Position numbers and translations under genes: made by a program. Shown here in pieces: positions 180 through 6,203 of a DNA stretch of 64,000 nt (position 1 is its first letter; every line of letters begins with the position of its first letter). The notes under the pieces were generated by a model that was not told the DNA's origin, searched no databases, and saw only the letters and a program-made list of their open reading frames with translations. The stretch is from Sedimentibacter sp. SX930 (GTDB taxonomy: Bacteria; Bacillota; Bacilli; Lactobacillales; Aerococcaceae). The stretch spans positions 124,001 through 188,000 of the forward strand of contig MUZD01000001.1 of NCBI GenBank assembly GCA_002155105.1. Reading direction: 5' to 3'.

Positions 180-470
180 ATGACGATTGAATACAAAACA
201 TACGCGAAATGTCTGAAAGTGTTGTCGGACGAAACTAGATTGGAAATCATGGATTTATTGTCGGAAGGCGAAATGTGTGCCTGTGCGTTGTTGGATCAGT
301 TTTCGATCACCCAACCGACCTTGTCGTATCACATGAAGATGATGAAGGACTGCGGCTTGGTGGCCAGCAGAAAAGACGGCATTTGGGTCAAATATTCCGT
401 GAATCATGAAAAATTGGATGAATTGAAGGACTTTTTCCAGACAATGGCAAAGCAAAGCACCACTGTATAG
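180..470 (+). CDS. arsR: ArsR/SmtB-family metalloregulatory repressor
   Basis: 96-residue winged-helix repressor of the ArsR/SmtB family. The thiol metal site MCACALL (Cys33, Cys35) matches the ELCVCDL signature at the start of the recognition region of arsenite-sensing ArsR proteins; an extra Cys11 could be a third ligand. The recognition helix follows (SITQPTLSYHMKMM, about residues 42-55). Family members leave DNA when As(III) or Sb(III) binds. It is the first gene of a two-gene operon with the CxxC protein 16 bases downstream. An operator at 96-111 suggests autoregulation. The exact metal sensed is not proven. Confidence 0.93.
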   Translation: MTIEYKTYAKCLKVLSDETRLEIMDLLSEGEMCACALLDQFSITQPTLSYHMKMMKDCGLVASRKDGIWVKYSVNHEKLDELKDFFQTMAKQSTTV

Positions 471-486
471 CACGAGAAAGCAGGGG

Positions 487-726
487 ATGGAAATGGAAAT
501 CAAAATACTGGGACCAGGGTGCCGCAACTGCGAGAAACTGCAGGCCAATGCACATGAAGCACTGAAGAAAATCGGCATGGAAGCAACCATCATCAAAGTG
601 GAAGATCCGATAGAAATCGCAAAATACGGCATCATGCAGACTCCGGGCCTGGTCATCAATGAAAAGGTCGTCTCATATGGGCGGATCTTGACACCCAAAC
701 ACATTGCAGAACTGCTGCAAAAGTGA
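487..726 (+). CDS. Small thioredoxin-fold CxxC protein (redox-active disulfide protein 2 type)
   Basis: 79-residue protein of the small thioredoxin-fold family often called redox-active disulfide protein 2. The redox motif GCRNCEK sits at residues 11-17, and the cis-proline segment TPGLVIN near residues 57-63 is typical of thioredoxin folds. ATG codons at 487 and 493 are both possible starts. It is a close paralogue of the protein at 1966-2199. Such proteins commonly neighbour UPF0718 permeases and ars genes. A role in thiol reduction or metal(loid) handover is inference; the substrate is unknown. Confidence 0.85.
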   Translation: MEMEIKILGPGCRNCEKLQANAHEALKKIGMEATIIKVEDPIEIAKYGIMQTPGLVINEKVVSYGRILTPKHIAELLQK

Positions 727-889: not shown

Positions 890-925
890 ATGTGAAAAAA
901 TACAAAATAGAAGGTGCAGTTCATC

Positions 926-1930
926 ATGGGAATTTTTCAATGGTTAAATGATCAGTTATTAAAAATGCAGTGGCTCAGCGATTTGGTCGCTGTGCTTGTC
1001 CGGGATGTCTTCGGATTGGACCTCGCCAGCAGGGTAGGCGCCAGCATCCACTTCTTCATCTACGACGTCATCAAAATCTTCATTCTGTTGTCGGTGCTGA
1101 TTTTCTCCATTTCATACGTGCAAAGCTTTTTCCCGCCTGAGCGGACGAAGAAAATCTTGGGACGCTTTGATGGGATCACCGCCAATATCCTGGCGGCGTT
1201 GCTGGGGACGATTACACCATTCTGTTCCTGTTCTTCGATTCCACTTTTCATCGGCTTCACCGGATCGGGACTGCCGTTGGGCGTGACGTTTTCGTTCCTG
1301 ATCTCTTCACCGCTTGTTGATTTGGCATCGATTATCCTCTTGGCCAGCATCTTCAACTGGAAAATCGCCATCGCGTATGTCGTTGTGGGATTGATACTTG
1401 CGGTTGTCGGCGGAACCTTCATCGGGAAAGCGCACATGGAGGACCAGGTCGAATCCTTTGTGTTCGGTAGCCCGACAATTGAACTTGAGGAAGCAGAGTT
1501 GACAAGGAGGGATCGTGTCAATTATGCAGTCGATCAAGTGAAGGAAGTCGTCCAGAAAGTGTGGCTGTATGTGCTCCTTGGGGTCGGCATCGGAGCCGCC
1601 ATCCACAACTGGATTCCGGAGTCCGTTATAACGGCTCTGTTGGGCCAAGATAAATGGTATTCGGTATTGGTGGCAACATTCGTCGGGGTTCCGATGTATG
1701 CAGATATTTTCGGGACGCTGCCCATTTCCGAAGCACTTGTCGCAAAAGGGGTCGGATTGGGAACCGTGCTTTCCTTCATGATGGGTGTAACGGCATTGTC
1801 CTTGCCGTCGATGGTCATGCTGAAGCAGGTCGTCAAACCAAAATTGTTGGGCCTCTTCTTCGGAATCGTGGCAGTCGGTATCATCATCATCGGCTATGTG
1901 TTCAATTTCCTGGGACCAATCTTTATGTAA
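926..1930 (+). CDS. UPF0718/YraQ-type permease (ArsP-related)
   Basis: Predicted integral membrane permease of the UPF0718 (DUF318) family, which includes ArsP-type exporters. The translation shows about eight hydrophobic segments with a central cytosolic loop near residues 165-205. A Cys-rich motif PFCSCSSIP lies about residues 95-103 at the start of a membrane helix, as in this family. I prefer ATG 926 (MGIFQWL) because GAAGG at 910-914 is correctly spaced for it; a GTG at 914 is in frame. It is co-transcribed with a CxxC protein 35 bases downstream. The substrate could be an organoarsenical or another thiol-reactive metalloid; this is inference. Confidence 0.82.
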   Translation: MGIFQWLNDQLLKMQWLSDLVAVLVRDVFGLDLASRVGASIHFFIYDVIKIFILLSVLIFSISYVQSFFPPERTKKILGRFDGITANILAALLGTITPFCSCSSIPLFIGFTGSGLPLGVTFSFLISSPLVDLASIILLASIFNWKIAIAYVVVGLILAVVGGTFIGKAHMEDQVESFVFGSPTIELEEAELTRRDRVNYAVDQVKEVVQKVWLYVLLGVGIGAAIHNWIPESVITALLGQDKWYSVLVATFVGVPMYADIFGTLPISEALVAKGVGLGTVLSFMMGVTALSLPSMVMLKQVVKPKLLGLFFGIVAVGIIIIGYVFNFLGPIFM

Positions 1931-1965: not shown

Positions 1966-2199
1966 ATGGAAATCAAAATTTTGGGTATAGGCTGCAAAAA
2001 TTGCGTGAATTTGGCTAAGAACACGGAAGAGGCTTTGAAGGAACTGGGGATGGAAGCGACCATCACAAAAGTGACCGATATGAAGGACATCGCGAAATAC
2101 GGCATCATGCGCACACCGGGATTGGTCATCGACGAGAAAGTAGTCTCCTACGGTAAAGTCGCCAGTACGGAAGAAATCACAGAATTGTTGAAAAAATAA
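1966..2199 (+). CDS. Small thioredoxin-fold CxxC protein, second copy
   Basis: 77-residue paralogue of the protein at 487-726, with redox motif GCKNCVN and the same TPGLVI cis-proline segment. The start is ATG 1966, nine bases after a perfect AGGAGG (1951-1956); a longer open frame upstream overlaps the permease and is not needed. It forms an operon with the permease. The pairing of a CxxC protein with the permease, and the duplicate with arsR, suggests thiol-linked handling of a metalloid, but no activity can be assigned from sequence alone. Confidence 0.87.
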   Translation: MEIKILGIGCKNCVNLAKNTEEALKELGMEATITKVTDMKDIAKYGIMRTPGLVIDEKVVSYGKVASTEEITELLKK

Positions 2200-2271: not shown

Positions 2272-2300
2272 TTGACTGTAGATTGAAGAAGTTCTATATT
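2272..2300 (+). promoter_or_regulatory. Promoter with overlapping ArsR-type operator
   Basis: TTGACT (2272-2277) and TATATT (2295-2300) are 17 bases apart. ATTGA-N6-TCTAT (2282-2297) fills the spacer and enters the -10. It precedes the ArsD-like gene. Confidence 0.72.
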
Positions 2301-2372: not shown

Positions 2373-2924
2373 ATGACAAACATTACTATTTTTGAACCGG
2401 AAACAAGCAGTAGCTTGTTCAGCAGCCAGGATGCCCTGCGCATTGCAGCAGTAATGGAGGCTTTGGAAGGCTTGGAGAATTACGAGGCATTGCTTTTTAA
2501 TTTGACCGATGATGCGGATCAATTCACGCTAAACAAGGCCGTTAACGAAAAAATCGAGGCGGAAGGCAATAGCGTCTTGCCAATCACTGTTGTGGATGGA
2601 GCAATCGTTAAAAGCGGCAGCTACCCGATCAACGATGAAATCACAAGCTATATCGGCGTCCGCTTCATTGAAGAGACAGAAGGCTCTTGTGGTTGCGGAG
2701 GCTGTGGTTGTGGCGGTTCGGAGGAATTTGCCGAAGCAGAAGAAGTAGAAAAAGAAGAAAAAGAAGAAAAAGAAGAAAAAGAAGAATCTGGCTGCTGCGG
2801 CGGCAATGGCGGAAAAGGCGGCTGTGGCTGCGGTGGTCATGGACACCATCATCACCATAAGCATGAGGAAGCTGCAACAGCAAGTAAGGGCTCATGCGGT
2901 TGTGGACAGGGCGGCTGTTGCTAG
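2373..2924 (+). CDS. ArsD-like protein with Cys/His-rich C-terminal tail
   Basis: 183 residues. Residues 1 to about 100 resemble ArsD, the As(III) metallochaperone and co-repressor (core features NLTDDADQF, NKAVNE, VLPITVVDG, SGSYP). The usual N-terminal Cys-Cys pair that binds As(III) is replaced by serines (ETSSSLFSS). The last 80 residues form an unusual tail of CGCGG repeats, an acidic EEKEEKEEKEE spacer, a second Cys/Gly block, HGHHHHHKH, and a CGCGQGGCC end, giving 12 Cys and 7 His in all. The ORF is continuous and has a suitable SD (GGGG, 2360s). Metal(loid) binding by the tail is a strong inference. It has its own ArsR-type operator and terminator. Confidence 0.8.
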   Translation: MTNITIFEPETSSSLFSSQDALRIAAVMEALEGLENYEALLFNLTDDADQFTLNKAVNEKIEAEGNSVLPITVVDGAIVKSGSYPINDEITSYIGVRFIEETEGSCGCGGCGCGGSEEFAEAEEVEKEEKEEKEEKEESGCCGGNGGKGGCGCGGHGHHHHHKHEEAATASKGSCGCGQGGCC

Positions 2925-2977: not shown

Positions 2978-2985
2978 AGCGATAG

Positions 2986-3001
2986 ATAGAAAAACTTCTA
3001 T
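2986..3001 (+). promoter_or_regulatory. ArsR-type operator
   Basis: ATAGA-N6-TCTAT, identical in both half sites to the operator at 96-111, lies 22 bases before the second arsR start. I cannot fix the -35/-10 elements here with confidence. Confidence 0.7.
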
Positions 3002-3023
3002 ATAAAAAGGAGCATCAGCAATC

Positions 3024-3368
3024 ATGGATTATGAAAATTATGCAAAAATCGCAAAGGCTTTGGCCGACCCGAAGCGCGTAAAAATTGTCGATATGCTTTC
3101 CTGCGGGGCCATGTGTGCCTGCGACATACTGGAACATTTCGATTTTACCCAGCCAACTTTATCCCATCACATCAATCTGTTGGTGAAGGCGGGGCTGGTG
3201 ACGACGGAAAAATCCGGTACGTGGCATTATTACGATCTGAATAAAGACGCTTTCGAAAAATTCAAGATGGATACCGCGGAACTGATAGCCAATACACCGG
3301 CCTGCATCTGTGAACCGGTGCGGTCAAAAGCTGTGTGCACAACGGAAGAAAAAGAAAAAATCAAATGA
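3024..3368 (+). CDS. arsR: ArsR-family repressor, second copy
   Basis: 114-residue ArsR/SmtB repressor. The metal site carries Cys27, Cys31 and Cys33 (LSCGAMCACDIL) and the recognition helix reads FTQPTLSHHINLL. A C-terminal extension contains further cysteines (PACICEP and AVC), not found in the first copy, which could tune sensing. It starts after AAGGAG (3007-3012) and leads an operon with acr3 and the CoA-disulfide reductase. Autoregulation is expected from the operator at 2986-3001. Confidence 0.93.
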   Translation: MDYENYAKIAKALADPKRVKIVDMLSCGAMCACDILEHFDFTQPTLSHHINLLVKAGLVTTEKSGTWHYYDLNKDAFEKFKMDTAELIANTPACICEPVRSKAVCTTEEKEKIK

Positions 3369-3420: not shown

Positions 3421-4506
3421 ATGAGTGGAAAAGAGCAAACAAGCATCTCGTTCTTCAATAAATATTTGAGTGTCTGGGTAGCAATCTGTATGGTGGCGGG
3501 GGTTCTGGTCGGAAAATATCTGCCGGTCATACCTGAATTCTTCGGGAAATTCGAATATGCGAACGTCTCAATCCCAACGGCCGTGCTGATATGGGTCATG
3601 ATCTACCCGATGATGATGAAGGTAGATTTCCAAAGCGTCCGGGACGTCGGGAATAATCCGAAAGGACTTTATGTCACCTGGGCAGTGAACTGGCTGATCA
3701 AACCTTTTACCATGTACGCGATTTCCGCTTTCTTCTTCTTTATCGTCTTTAAGAATTTCATTACGCCCGAGTTGGCGACGGAATATTTGGCAGGGGCGAT
3801 TCTGCTGGGAGCTGCGCCGTGTACGGCTATGGTATTTGTCTGGAGCCAATTGACAAAGGGCAATCCGGCGTACACTGTCGTTCAGGTTGCGACCAATGAT
3901 CTGATTATCCTGGTAGCCTTCATTCCGATCGTCAAATTTTTATTGGGCGTCAGCAATGTAACGGTGCCTTGGGACACCTTGATCCTGTCCGTTGTCTTGT
4001 TCGTTGTGATTCCATTGGTCGGAGGAGTCCTGACGCGAATTTTCGTCACAAAGAAAAAAGGAGTCACTTATTTCGAGAAGGATTTTCTTTCGAAATTTGA
4101 TGGCGCAACTACAGCTGGGCTGTTGTTGATGCTGGTCTTGCTGTTCTCTTTCCAAGGAGAGGTCATTCTGGAGAACCCGTTGCACATTTTGATGATCGCA
4201 GTACCTTTGATCCTGCAGACATTCCTGATTTTCTTCATTGCCTATTTTGCAAGCAAGGCCTTGAAGCTTCCACACGCAATCGCCGCACCAGCCGGGATGA
4301 TCGGCGCATCGAACTTTTTTGAATTATCGGTGGCGGTTGCCATCGCGTTGTTCGGAATGGATTCTCCAGCAGCATTGGCGACGGTTGTGGGTGTCTTGAC
4401 TGAAGTGCCGGTGATGCTGATTTTGGTGAAAATTGCCAATTCGACAAGACATTGGTTTCCTGGAAAAGAAAAAAGTGTAGTGAATCCTGTAAAAACGGTA
4501 AAATAA
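3421..4506 (+). CDS. acr3: ACR3-family arsenite efflux permease
   Basis: 361 residues with about ten hydrophobic segments, matching the ACR3 family in length and sequence. Family hallmarks include YPMMMKVDF near residue 60, GAAPCTAMVFVWS with the conserved cysteine near residue 137, and PHAIAAPAGMIGASNFFELSVA split across helices 8-9. ACR3 proteins export arsenite (some also antimonite) using the proton motive force. It follows arsR by 52 bases and an SD (TGGAGG). Together with the repressor this is the core arsenic resistance function of the region. Confidence is high. Confidence 0.95.
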   Translation: MSGKEQTSISFFNKYLSVWVAICMVAGVLVGKYLPVIPEFFGKFEYANVSIPTAVLIWVMIYPMMMKVDFQSVRDVGNNPKGLYVTWAVNWLIKPFTMYAISAFFFFIVFKNFITPELATEYLAGAILLGAAPCTAMVFVWSQLTKGNPAYTVVQVATNDLIILVAFIPIVKFLLGVSNVTVPWDTLILSVVLFVVIPLVGGVLTRIFVTKKKGVTYFEKDFLSKFDGATTAGLLLMLVLLFSFQGEVILENPLHILMIAVPLILQTFLIFFIAYFASKALKLPHAIAAPAGMIGASNFFELSVAVAIALFGMDSPAALATVVGVLTEVPVMLILVKIANSTRHWFPGKEKSVVNPVKTVK

Positions 4507-4535: not shown

Positions 4536-6203
4536 ATGAAAATCATCGTAATCGGTTCGGTAGCGGCGGGTACCTCCGTTGCGGCCAAAGCGCGCAGAAA
4601 CACTGAGGAAGCGGAAATAGTCGTCTATGACCAAGGGAAGGACATTTCCTATTCTGTCTGCGGTATCCCCTACAAAATCGGTGGGGAAGTCGATTCAGTG
4701 GATCGCCTGACGCCGCGGGATGCGAAATGGTTCAAAAAGAGATATGATGTCTCCATTTTTACGGAACATAAAGTGACGAAAGTGGATCATGACTCCAAAA
4801 AGATTCAAGTTAAAGATCTTAAGACCGGCGAAATCAAAGAGGACGCTTATGATGTGTTGGTTTTCGCGACAGGTGCGGCTCCGCTGACGCCTCCGCCTTT
4901 CGATCAGGCTGAATATGATAATGTCTTCCACGTCCGTAACATCCAGGACCTTCGTGACATTGAAAGTTATTCGGAAGCGAACCAACCAAAAAAAGCGCTG
5001 ATCATCGGTGCCGGGTTCATCGGTCTGGAAATGGCCGAACAACTCGTGTATAAAGGTTGGGATGTCTCCATCGTTCAACTGGAAAATCAAGTGATGCCGC
5101 CGATGGATGCGGATATGGCTTTTCGTGTGGAAGAAGTGCTGATGGCCAATGCGGTGCATTTGCACCTTGGTGATACGGTCAAGACCATCGAAGGTAAGGG
5201 GACCGTCAAAAAAGTGGTGACGACAAAAGGCGCCACCATCGAAACGGATATCGTCATCCTGGCTGCCGGCGTGCGTCCGAATATCCAACTGCCGAAGGAA
5301 ATCGGCGTCACGATCGGAGCGACGGGTGCAGTTGCCGTCAACAGTAAAATGCAGACGAACATCCCGGATGTTTATGCGGTCGGAGACGTCGCCGAAAGCT
5401 TCTCGGTCATCACAGGCAAACCGATTTACCGTCCATTGGGCTCTACGGCCAACAAGATGGGACGTATCGCCGGAGACGTAATCACAGGCGGGAATCTGGA
5501 ACACCGTGGGGTGCTGGGTACCGGCATTTTCCGTGTATTCAATCTGCATGTCGGCCAGACAGGCATGACCGAAAGAGAGGCGAAGGCAGCCGGTTATTCC
5601 GTGGAAGTCCTTTACAACATCAAGCCTGACCACGCCGAATACCTTGGCGGCAAGGAACTGATCATCAAGGCATTGGCTGATAAAGCTTCCGGACGCGTTT
5701 TGGGTGCGCAAATCTTAGGAACGCAAGGTGTGGACAAACGGATCGATGTCCTTGCCACGGCCATCACCTTCAAGGCAAAAGCTGAAGATCTGTTCCATCT
5801 CGATCTGGCTTATGCTCCGCCGTTCGCAACGACAAAAGATCCTATCCATTATACAGGCATGGCATTGGATAACGCCTTGCATGGAAACCCTCTGATGACG
5901 CCGGCCCAGGTGGTCGAAACGCAACGTAAAGGCGAATCTATCCAGGTGGTCGATACGCGTTCCGCCAAGGACTTCGAGAAGGGCCACGTCCAAAATGCAA
6001 TCCACATCCCGTTAGGGGAACTGCGTGCACGCGCCGGTGAGCTTTCCAAAGATATCCCGACAGTTACCTACTGCAACAAAGGCGTGACCGGAAATGCCGC
6101 TCAGAATGTCTTGATCAATTTAGGTTTCCAGGAAGTCTACAACCTTTCCGGCGGCAACAAAAATTATCAAAGTTACCTCAAAATGCTGAAGAGAAAAAGC
6201 TGA
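4536..6203 (+). CDS. CoA-disulfide reductase with C-terminal rhodanese domain (ars-linked copy)
   Basis: 555 residues. The first 440 or so are a pyridine-nucleotide disulfide oxidoreductase of the CoA-disulfide reductase/NADH oxidase group: FAD motif IVIGSVAAG at the N terminus, single active-site Cys in YSVCGIPY, NAD(P) motif IIGAGFIGLE, and FAD contact YAVGDVAE. A rhodanese domain follows (about 455-555) with active Cys in YCNKGVTGN. Such fusions reduce CoA disulfide/persulfide or polysulfide. It is the third gene of the arsR-acr3 operon, so a role in repairing the thiol pool during arsenic stress is a fair inference. A paralogue lies at 47828-49483. Confidence 0.9.
   Translation: MKIIVIGSVAAGTSVAAKARRNTEEAEIVVYDQGKDISYSVCGIPYKIGGEVDSVDRLTPRDAKWFKKRYDVSIFTEHKVTKVDHDSKKIQVKDLKTGEIKEDAYDVLVFATGAAPLTPPPFDQAEYDNVFHVRNIQDLRDIESYSEANQPKKALIIGAGFIGLEMAEQLVYKGWDVSIVQLENQVMPPMDADMAFRVEEVLMANAVHLHLGDTVKTIEGKGTVKKVVTTKGATIETDIVILAAGVRPNIQLPKEIGVTIGATGAVAVNSKMQTNIPDVYAVGDVAESFSVITGKPIYRPLGSTANKMGRIAGDVITGGNLEHRGVLGTGIFRVFNLHVGQTGMTEREAKAAGYSVEVLYNIKPDHAEYLGGKELIIKALADKASGRVLGAQILGTQGVDKRIDVLATAITFKAKAEDLFHLDLAYAPPFATTKDPIHYTGMALDNALHGNPLMTPAQVVETQRKGESIQVVDTRSAKDFEKGHVQNAIHIPLGELRARAGELSKDIPTVTYCNKGVTGNAAQNVLINLGFQEVYNLSGGNKNYQSYLKMLKRKS

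Follow-up and report, generated by a model that had tools for sequence, protein, structure and literature searches.

An ArsD-like protein of Trichococcus lacking the N-terminal cysteine site and carrying a Cys/His-rich tail

Background

What can an ArsD-like protein do when its N-terminal arsenite site is missing and all of its cysteines are found in a C-terminal tail? The question is raised by a gene contained within an arsenic cluster, located in the 64,000-nucleotide stretch of DNA analysed here as a whole and referred to as the window. The closest named relative of the source genome is Trichococcus pasteurii (98% best-segment identity). In ordinary ArsD, As(III) is bound by Cys12, Cys13 and Cys18 and transferred to ArsA. 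In R773 ArsD these residues are needed for chaperoning to ArsA, whereas regulation depends on vicinal pairs near the C-terminus (PMC4562236, PMC12607644); of the Cys pairs, Cys12-Cys13 is described as the sole one conserved across all ArsD homologues (PMC12607644). The open-access literature yielded no description of an ArsD that carries a Cys/His tail or has lost the Cys12/13/18 site.

Results

Anatomy of the gene and its product

The gene and the regions of its product are reported below, with coordinates relative to the window.

2373..2924, + strand: arsD-like gene, open reading frame from ATG to TAG, 183 aa, matching PF06953; kept in 13 of 13 Trichococcus genomes examined
2373..2672, + strand: ArsD core, residues 1-100, 0 Cys; thioredoxin-like ArsD fold, predicted from homology
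2400..2429, + strand: N-terminal ETSSSLFSSQ block, found in place of AMCCNTGVCGPSIDQ (DNA alignment of 12 congeners)
2673..2921, + strand: C-terminal tail, residues 101-183, 83 aa, with three CGCGG, CCGG, HGHHHHHKH and a CGCGQGGCC end; likely disordered
2733..2786, + strand: 9-bp tandem repeat coding for an acidic (KEE)n spacer (TRF; species comparison)

The initial annotation, made from the sequence alone, had described the core as ArsD-like, and the profile search bears this out: the Pfam ArsD model PF06953 matches residues 1-114 with 64.6 bits, against a cut-off of 27. It is the sole Pfam match, the FKBP-type prolyl isomerase domain of SlyD being absent, and no DNA-binding domain model was matched in the Pfam and NCBIfam scan. 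The NCBIfam ArsD equivalog NF033727 yields 52.8 bits, below its cut-off of 90, with an alignment beginning at residue 19. The core was also matched to the ArsD structure 3ktb (phmmer E 7e-9; profile E 3.6e-38). The AF2 model, built on a 4-row alignment, is of low confidence (mean pLDDT 47, about 33-41 in the tail); its strand order appears to fit ArsD, and no more is claimed for it.

The loss of the As(III) site, reported in the same annotation together with a Ser-rich stretch at residues 12-13, was equally found: SSS occupies residues 12-14, followed by LFSS, and the core contains no Cys. The count of 12 Cys and 7 His in the tail was reproduced on residues 101-183; a simple binomial, based on the long ORFs of the window as background (Cys 0.7%, His 2.1%, reverse-frame ORFs possibly included), gives P(>=12 Cys) of about 7e-13 and P(>=7 His) of about 0.002. 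C-terminal vicinal CC pairs, as known from the R773-type ArsD repressor, are located at positions 141-142 and 182-183 of the protein. Across the genome the codon pattern for CGCGG was counted six times, three of them inside the arsD-like gene, against four in the reversed control.

Neighbouring genes

The gene is surrounded by the following elements.

180..470, + strand: arsR1 (NF033788, 93.5 bits)
487..726, + strand: ArsE-type thioredoxin-like protein 1 (TIGR00412, 92.8 bits, cut-off 62)
914..1930, + strand: ArsP_1-family permease (PF03773, 227.9 bits)
1966..2199, + strand: ArsE-type thioredoxin-like protein 2 (TIGR00412, 104.3 bits)
3024..3368, + strand: arsR2, ArsR/SmtB repressor (NF033788, 91.7 bits, cut-off 55)
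3421..4506, + strand: acr3, arsenite efflux pump (TIGR00832, 375.8 bits, cut-off 282.8); with arsR2, it stands where genome G006 has arsA-arsR (synteny)
4536..6203, + strand: CoA-disulfide-reductase-like flavoprotein (CoADR) with a rhodanese domain, next gene of the cluster (profile matches; conserved order)

The tail is, as had been suggested, built like a metal-binding module, and the gene lies within an arsenic locus (ArsR, ACR3). At 828-889 of the window, the ArsP_1 permease promoter is overlapped by an inverted repeat with perfect 25-bp arms separated by 12 nt, which is probably an ArsR-type operator. Elsewhere in the source genome, a second PF06953 match (L125:7746-8075, contig 10) is Cys-free and tail-less, within an unrelated neighbourhood.

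Distribution within the genus and order of events

The arsD-like gene was found in all 13 Trichococcus genomes, 11 of which encode the SSS type (SSSLFSS, no Cys in the core) and two, G006 and G009, the CC type, where an ordinary CCxTGVCGP motif coexists with a 12-Cys tail; the tail of G009 contains 12 Cys and a single His. The N-terminal block shows no variation among the 11 SSS-type proteins. At the DNA level, the codons for Cys12 and Cys13 are changed from TGC-TGC to AGC-AGC (or AGT), and 15 nt, corresponding to 5 residues, are deleted.

In the tree of the cores, the 13 Trichococcus proteins group in a single clade (support 96), surrounded by CC-type ArsDs; within this clade G009 branches lowest, followed by G006 and then by the SSS set, the split between G006 and the latter being supported at 65%. 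The position of these two proteins, their CC motif and their tail indicate that the CC state is ancestral, that the tail is older than the loss of the site and that the loss is derived. The initial annotation had treated the tail as a newly acquired module standing in for the lost site, with the pair lost before the tail was gained: G006 and G009, having CCxTGVC together with a 12-Cys tail and branching below the SSS clade, contradict the former view and reverse the latter order. Gain of the tail as a compensation for Cys loss is consequently rejected. Homologues retaining the Cys pair along with the tail, which according to the same annotation would make the tail a common ArsD feature, do exist within the genus, but a long tail is uncommon in other ArsDs: those read outside Trichococcus have either no tail or a short CC...CC one.

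In the tree of the flanking genes, the placement of G006 among the SSS species is not resolved (support 27-37%), so that a recombination replacing the G006 locus is possible. The loss of the Cys site is essentially a single event in one genus. In plasmids, tblastn matches were limited to ordinary ArsDs sharing less than 60% identity, in no case over the greater part of the query, and no other ArsD was found in the viral contigs scanned.

Exchange of ArsA and ACR3 at the locus

A two-half ArsA ATPase is present in only two of the 13 Trichococcus genomes, again G006 and G009; elsewhere in the genus weak P-loop matches are found, and in the source genome the search for an ArsA partner gave only such P-loop ATPase matches (best E 1.2e-5). 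ACR3 was detected in 10 of 10 SSS genomes with a complete locus, the eleventh, G007, being about half complete and its contig stopping inside arsD; it was not found in G006 or G009. No match to ArsB reached the cut-off in any genome of the genus. Loss of the Cys site thus tracks loss of the ArsA partner, a match for which no honest P value can be given, the loss being essentially a single event.

In G006, whose assembly is 63% complete with the ars locus whole, the gene order is arsR1-trx-permease-trx-arsD-arsA-arsR-CoADR, compared to arsR1-(trx)-permease-trx-arsD'-arsR2-acr3-CoADR in other genomes. The outer neighbours are the same, and arsA occupies the syntenic slot taken elsewhere by arsR2-acr3. 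In G009 the tailed arsD is solitary under the shared operator, and arsA is located on another contig beside a second, tail-less CC arsD. An aquaporin-like (MIP) gene, identified by eye, is found near arsD/CoADR in the two ArsA-bearing genomes (L053:14159-14878; L054:1-160, minus strand).

ArsDs outside the genus

The comparison was extended to 80 further genomes with an ArsD match. ArsA is over the cut-off at full length in 61 of them and split or partial in 10, and the CC motif is kept in all these 71. Two genomes, G124 and G210, contain only ArsA remnants, adjoining a shortened arsD. ArsA is absent from the other seven: three (G024, G098, G099) have no N-terminal Cys, three (G065, G066, G075) a shifted CCGGSxxC motif, and G091 a CC-type arsD, in a locus (L176:7180-10690) with arsR, acr3 and CoADR.

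G091, which keeps CC with ACR3 and without ArsA, is a possible intermediate state, and indicates that the Cys site need not disappear as soon as ArsA does. Every genome of the outside sample that has ArsA thus retains CC, and ArsA can go before CC; the independent events behind this pattern are few, and it is given no P value. The Cys-free ArsD-like proteins of the G024 type, also without ArsA, form a deep separate lineage with different neighbours.

Two further groups were observed. In genus g14, all three genomes (L122:7981-8328, L123:5324-5683, L124:8173-8556) encode ArsD-like proteins without N-terminal Cys and with a short His/Cys tail; their genes overlap a lipoate-ligase-like gene, identified by eye; ArsA is absent, and the surroundings contain no ars genes. 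In genus g8 (L126:7314-7697), an ArsD-like protein with a CCGGSxxC motif is found in genomes without ArsA.

Selection on core and tail

The median dN/dS of the core is 0.073 (54 pairs), that of the tail 0.16, i.e. the tail evolves faster. Within the tail, Cys are retained at 93%; leaving Cys and His aside, the figure for the remaining residues is 76%. In complete SSS-type copies the tail ranges in length between 56 and 95 aa and contains 9-14 Cys and 5 to 18 His. The acidic KEE spacer, regarded in the initial annotation as a component of the tail, is indeed present here as a 9-bp tandem repeat, but its copy number varies between species and it is absent in G001 and G003; as judged by comparing the sequences, it is a slippery spacer and not a fixed design element. 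No broken copy occurs among the 11 SSS genomes, one being cut by a contig end. Since purifying selection on it is strong (dN/dS about 0.07), the Cys-free core is not decaying.

Promoter and putative operator

Upstream of the arsD-like gene, and again ahead of arsR2-acr3, the following elements were detected.

2272..2300, + strand: sigma-70-like promoter of the arsD-like gene, TTGACT-17-TATATT; conserved in congeners, by scan alone not above shuffles
2278..2299, + strand: putative ArsR operator GTAGATTGAAGAAGTTCTATAT, inside the arsD-like promoter (pattern search; conserved in G006 and G009)
2982..3003, + strand: second copy of the putative operator, ahead of arsR2-acr3 (pattern search)

The pattern ATAGATNGAAGAANNTCTATAT, with up to 3 mismatches allowed, has two matches in 64 kb against 0.04 expected by chance, one between the -35 and -10 elements of the arsD-like promoter, the other just ahead of arsR2-acr3. 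The operator call is based on this count and on conservation, not on the promoter scan, as the promoter and terminator scan alone performed no better than shuffles. ArsR2 would be the protein binding both putative operators, and arsenite-induced expression is expected, because the arsD-like gene lies under a putative ArsR operator.

Discussion

The reading that we prefer, with a probability of roughly 0.5, is that the protein may act as an arsenite-induced, ArsA-independent, thiol-rich metal(loid) buffer beside ACR3. The more specific proposal of a distinct ArsD subfamily, which would have dropped the ATPase hand-off and would serve ACR3 on its own, as a tail-based metal(loid) buffer induced by arsenite, is put forward more tentatively. 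Loss of the site together with retention of the tail suggests that a delivery protein was converted to soaking up or sensing metal(loid)s. The anatomy, the relative order of tail and Cys loss, the exchange of arsA and acr3, the operator sequence in common and the strong purifying selection are shown by the present analysis; we infer that arsenite induces the gene, that the tail binds metal(loid)s and that the protein cooperates with ACR3.

The course of events could have been as follows. ArsD would have been released from the ArsA ATPase, arsA being absent in most Trichococcus species, with arsR2-acr3 in its place. Once there was no ATPase left to supply, the site for As(III) transfer could have been removed, two Cys being replaced by Ser and 5 residues deleted; the C-terminal tail, older and rich in Cys, would have stayed, expanding its Cys set and gaining His. 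Kept under the ArsR operator, the gene would be expressed upon arsenite entry, and the 9-14 thiols of the tail, along with the His cluster, may capture As(III), or other soft metals set free by stress. The tail would then work as a reversible buffer, lowering free As(III) until ACR3 exports it.

The protein might instead be mainly a regulator, i.e. the repressor half of ArsD without the chaperone half, whose core binds ars promoters and whose vicinal tail Cys sense As(III), capping acr3 expression. Such a role, which we consider unlikely, would agree with the presence of Cys only in the C-terminal part, the region linked to regulation in R773 ArsD (PMC4562236), and of the operator at both the arsD-like and the arsR2-acr3 promoters. 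The operator, however, is already accounted for by ArsR2, no DNA-binding domain model was matched, and Bacillus CDB3 ArsD failed to bind its own promoter; moreover, a sensor needs fewer residues than the 9-14 Cys and as many as 18 His present in the tails, and the tail of G004 is without any CC pair.

A slightly lower chance is given to a store for another metal, SlyD- or metallothionein-like, holding Zn, Ni or Cu on an ArsD scaffold, with arsenic only as the inducer. A His cluster is an atypical As(III) ligand set, and for this reason the metal of the tail may be other than arsenic. The number of His varies from 5 to 18 across SSS-type congeners with complete tails, Cys being steady at 9-14, and a Cys/His-rich disordered tail is the design of SlyD, which binds Ni(II) and Zn(II) (PMC7055735). 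Against this stand the arsenic genes found as neighbours, the operator in common with arsR2-acr3 and the basal G009 tail, whose 12 Cys and single His indicate that the thiols are the older, steadier feature.

Highly improbable is a decaying ArsD left after arsA loss, with a tail drifting by repeat slippage, as the variable tail length (56-95 aa) and KEE repeat might suggest, in view of the core dN/dS of 0.073, the lack of broken copies, the invariant N-terminal block, the 93% retention of tail Cys and the conserved promoter and operator; pseudogene decay is contradicted by the purifying selection on the core.

Trichococcus constitutes a natural experiment, in which the same gene and locus occur with and without ArsA, and with and without the Cys site. 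This makes testable the function of ArsD apart from ArsA, the role of its C-terminal Cys and the fate of a metallochaperone once its client is gone; the tail is in addition a compact candidate As-binding sequence. If the subfamily proposal is true, a delivery chaperone would have evolved into a storage protein, and the change would be captured at a single syntenic locus that carries arsA in some genomes and acr3 in others.

Comparison with known systems

E. coli R773 ArsD (PDB 3kgk, 3mwh, 3ktb) shares with the Trichococcus protein homology over the whole core domain, location in an ars cluster and a C-terminal ending with vicinal CC. The protein encoded in the window differs in lacking both the Cys12/13/18 (CCxxGxC) site and an ArsA in the genome, in falling below the NCBIfam ArsD cut-off and in the length (about 80 aa) and content (12 Cys, 7 His) of its tail. 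The tailed canonical ArsDs of G006 and G009 represent the same gene, with the same promoter, operator and tail style, and in G006 the same syntenic locus; unlike the SSS type, they keep CCxTGVC, ArsA is present and no ACR3 was found. The ArsD-like proteins of genus g14 (L085, L091, L092) have a PF06953-like core without N-terminal Cys, a short His/Cys tail and no ArsA, but form a deep separate branch and adjoin a lipoate-ligase-like gene outside any ars cluster. SlyD, an FKBP-type Ni chaperone whose Cys/His-rich disordered tail binds several Ni(II) and also Zn(II) (PMC7055735), similarly carries a disordered metal-binding tail on a folded domain; its core is unrelated, with no shared ancestry shown, and its context is nickel rather than arsenic; the likeness is one of working only.
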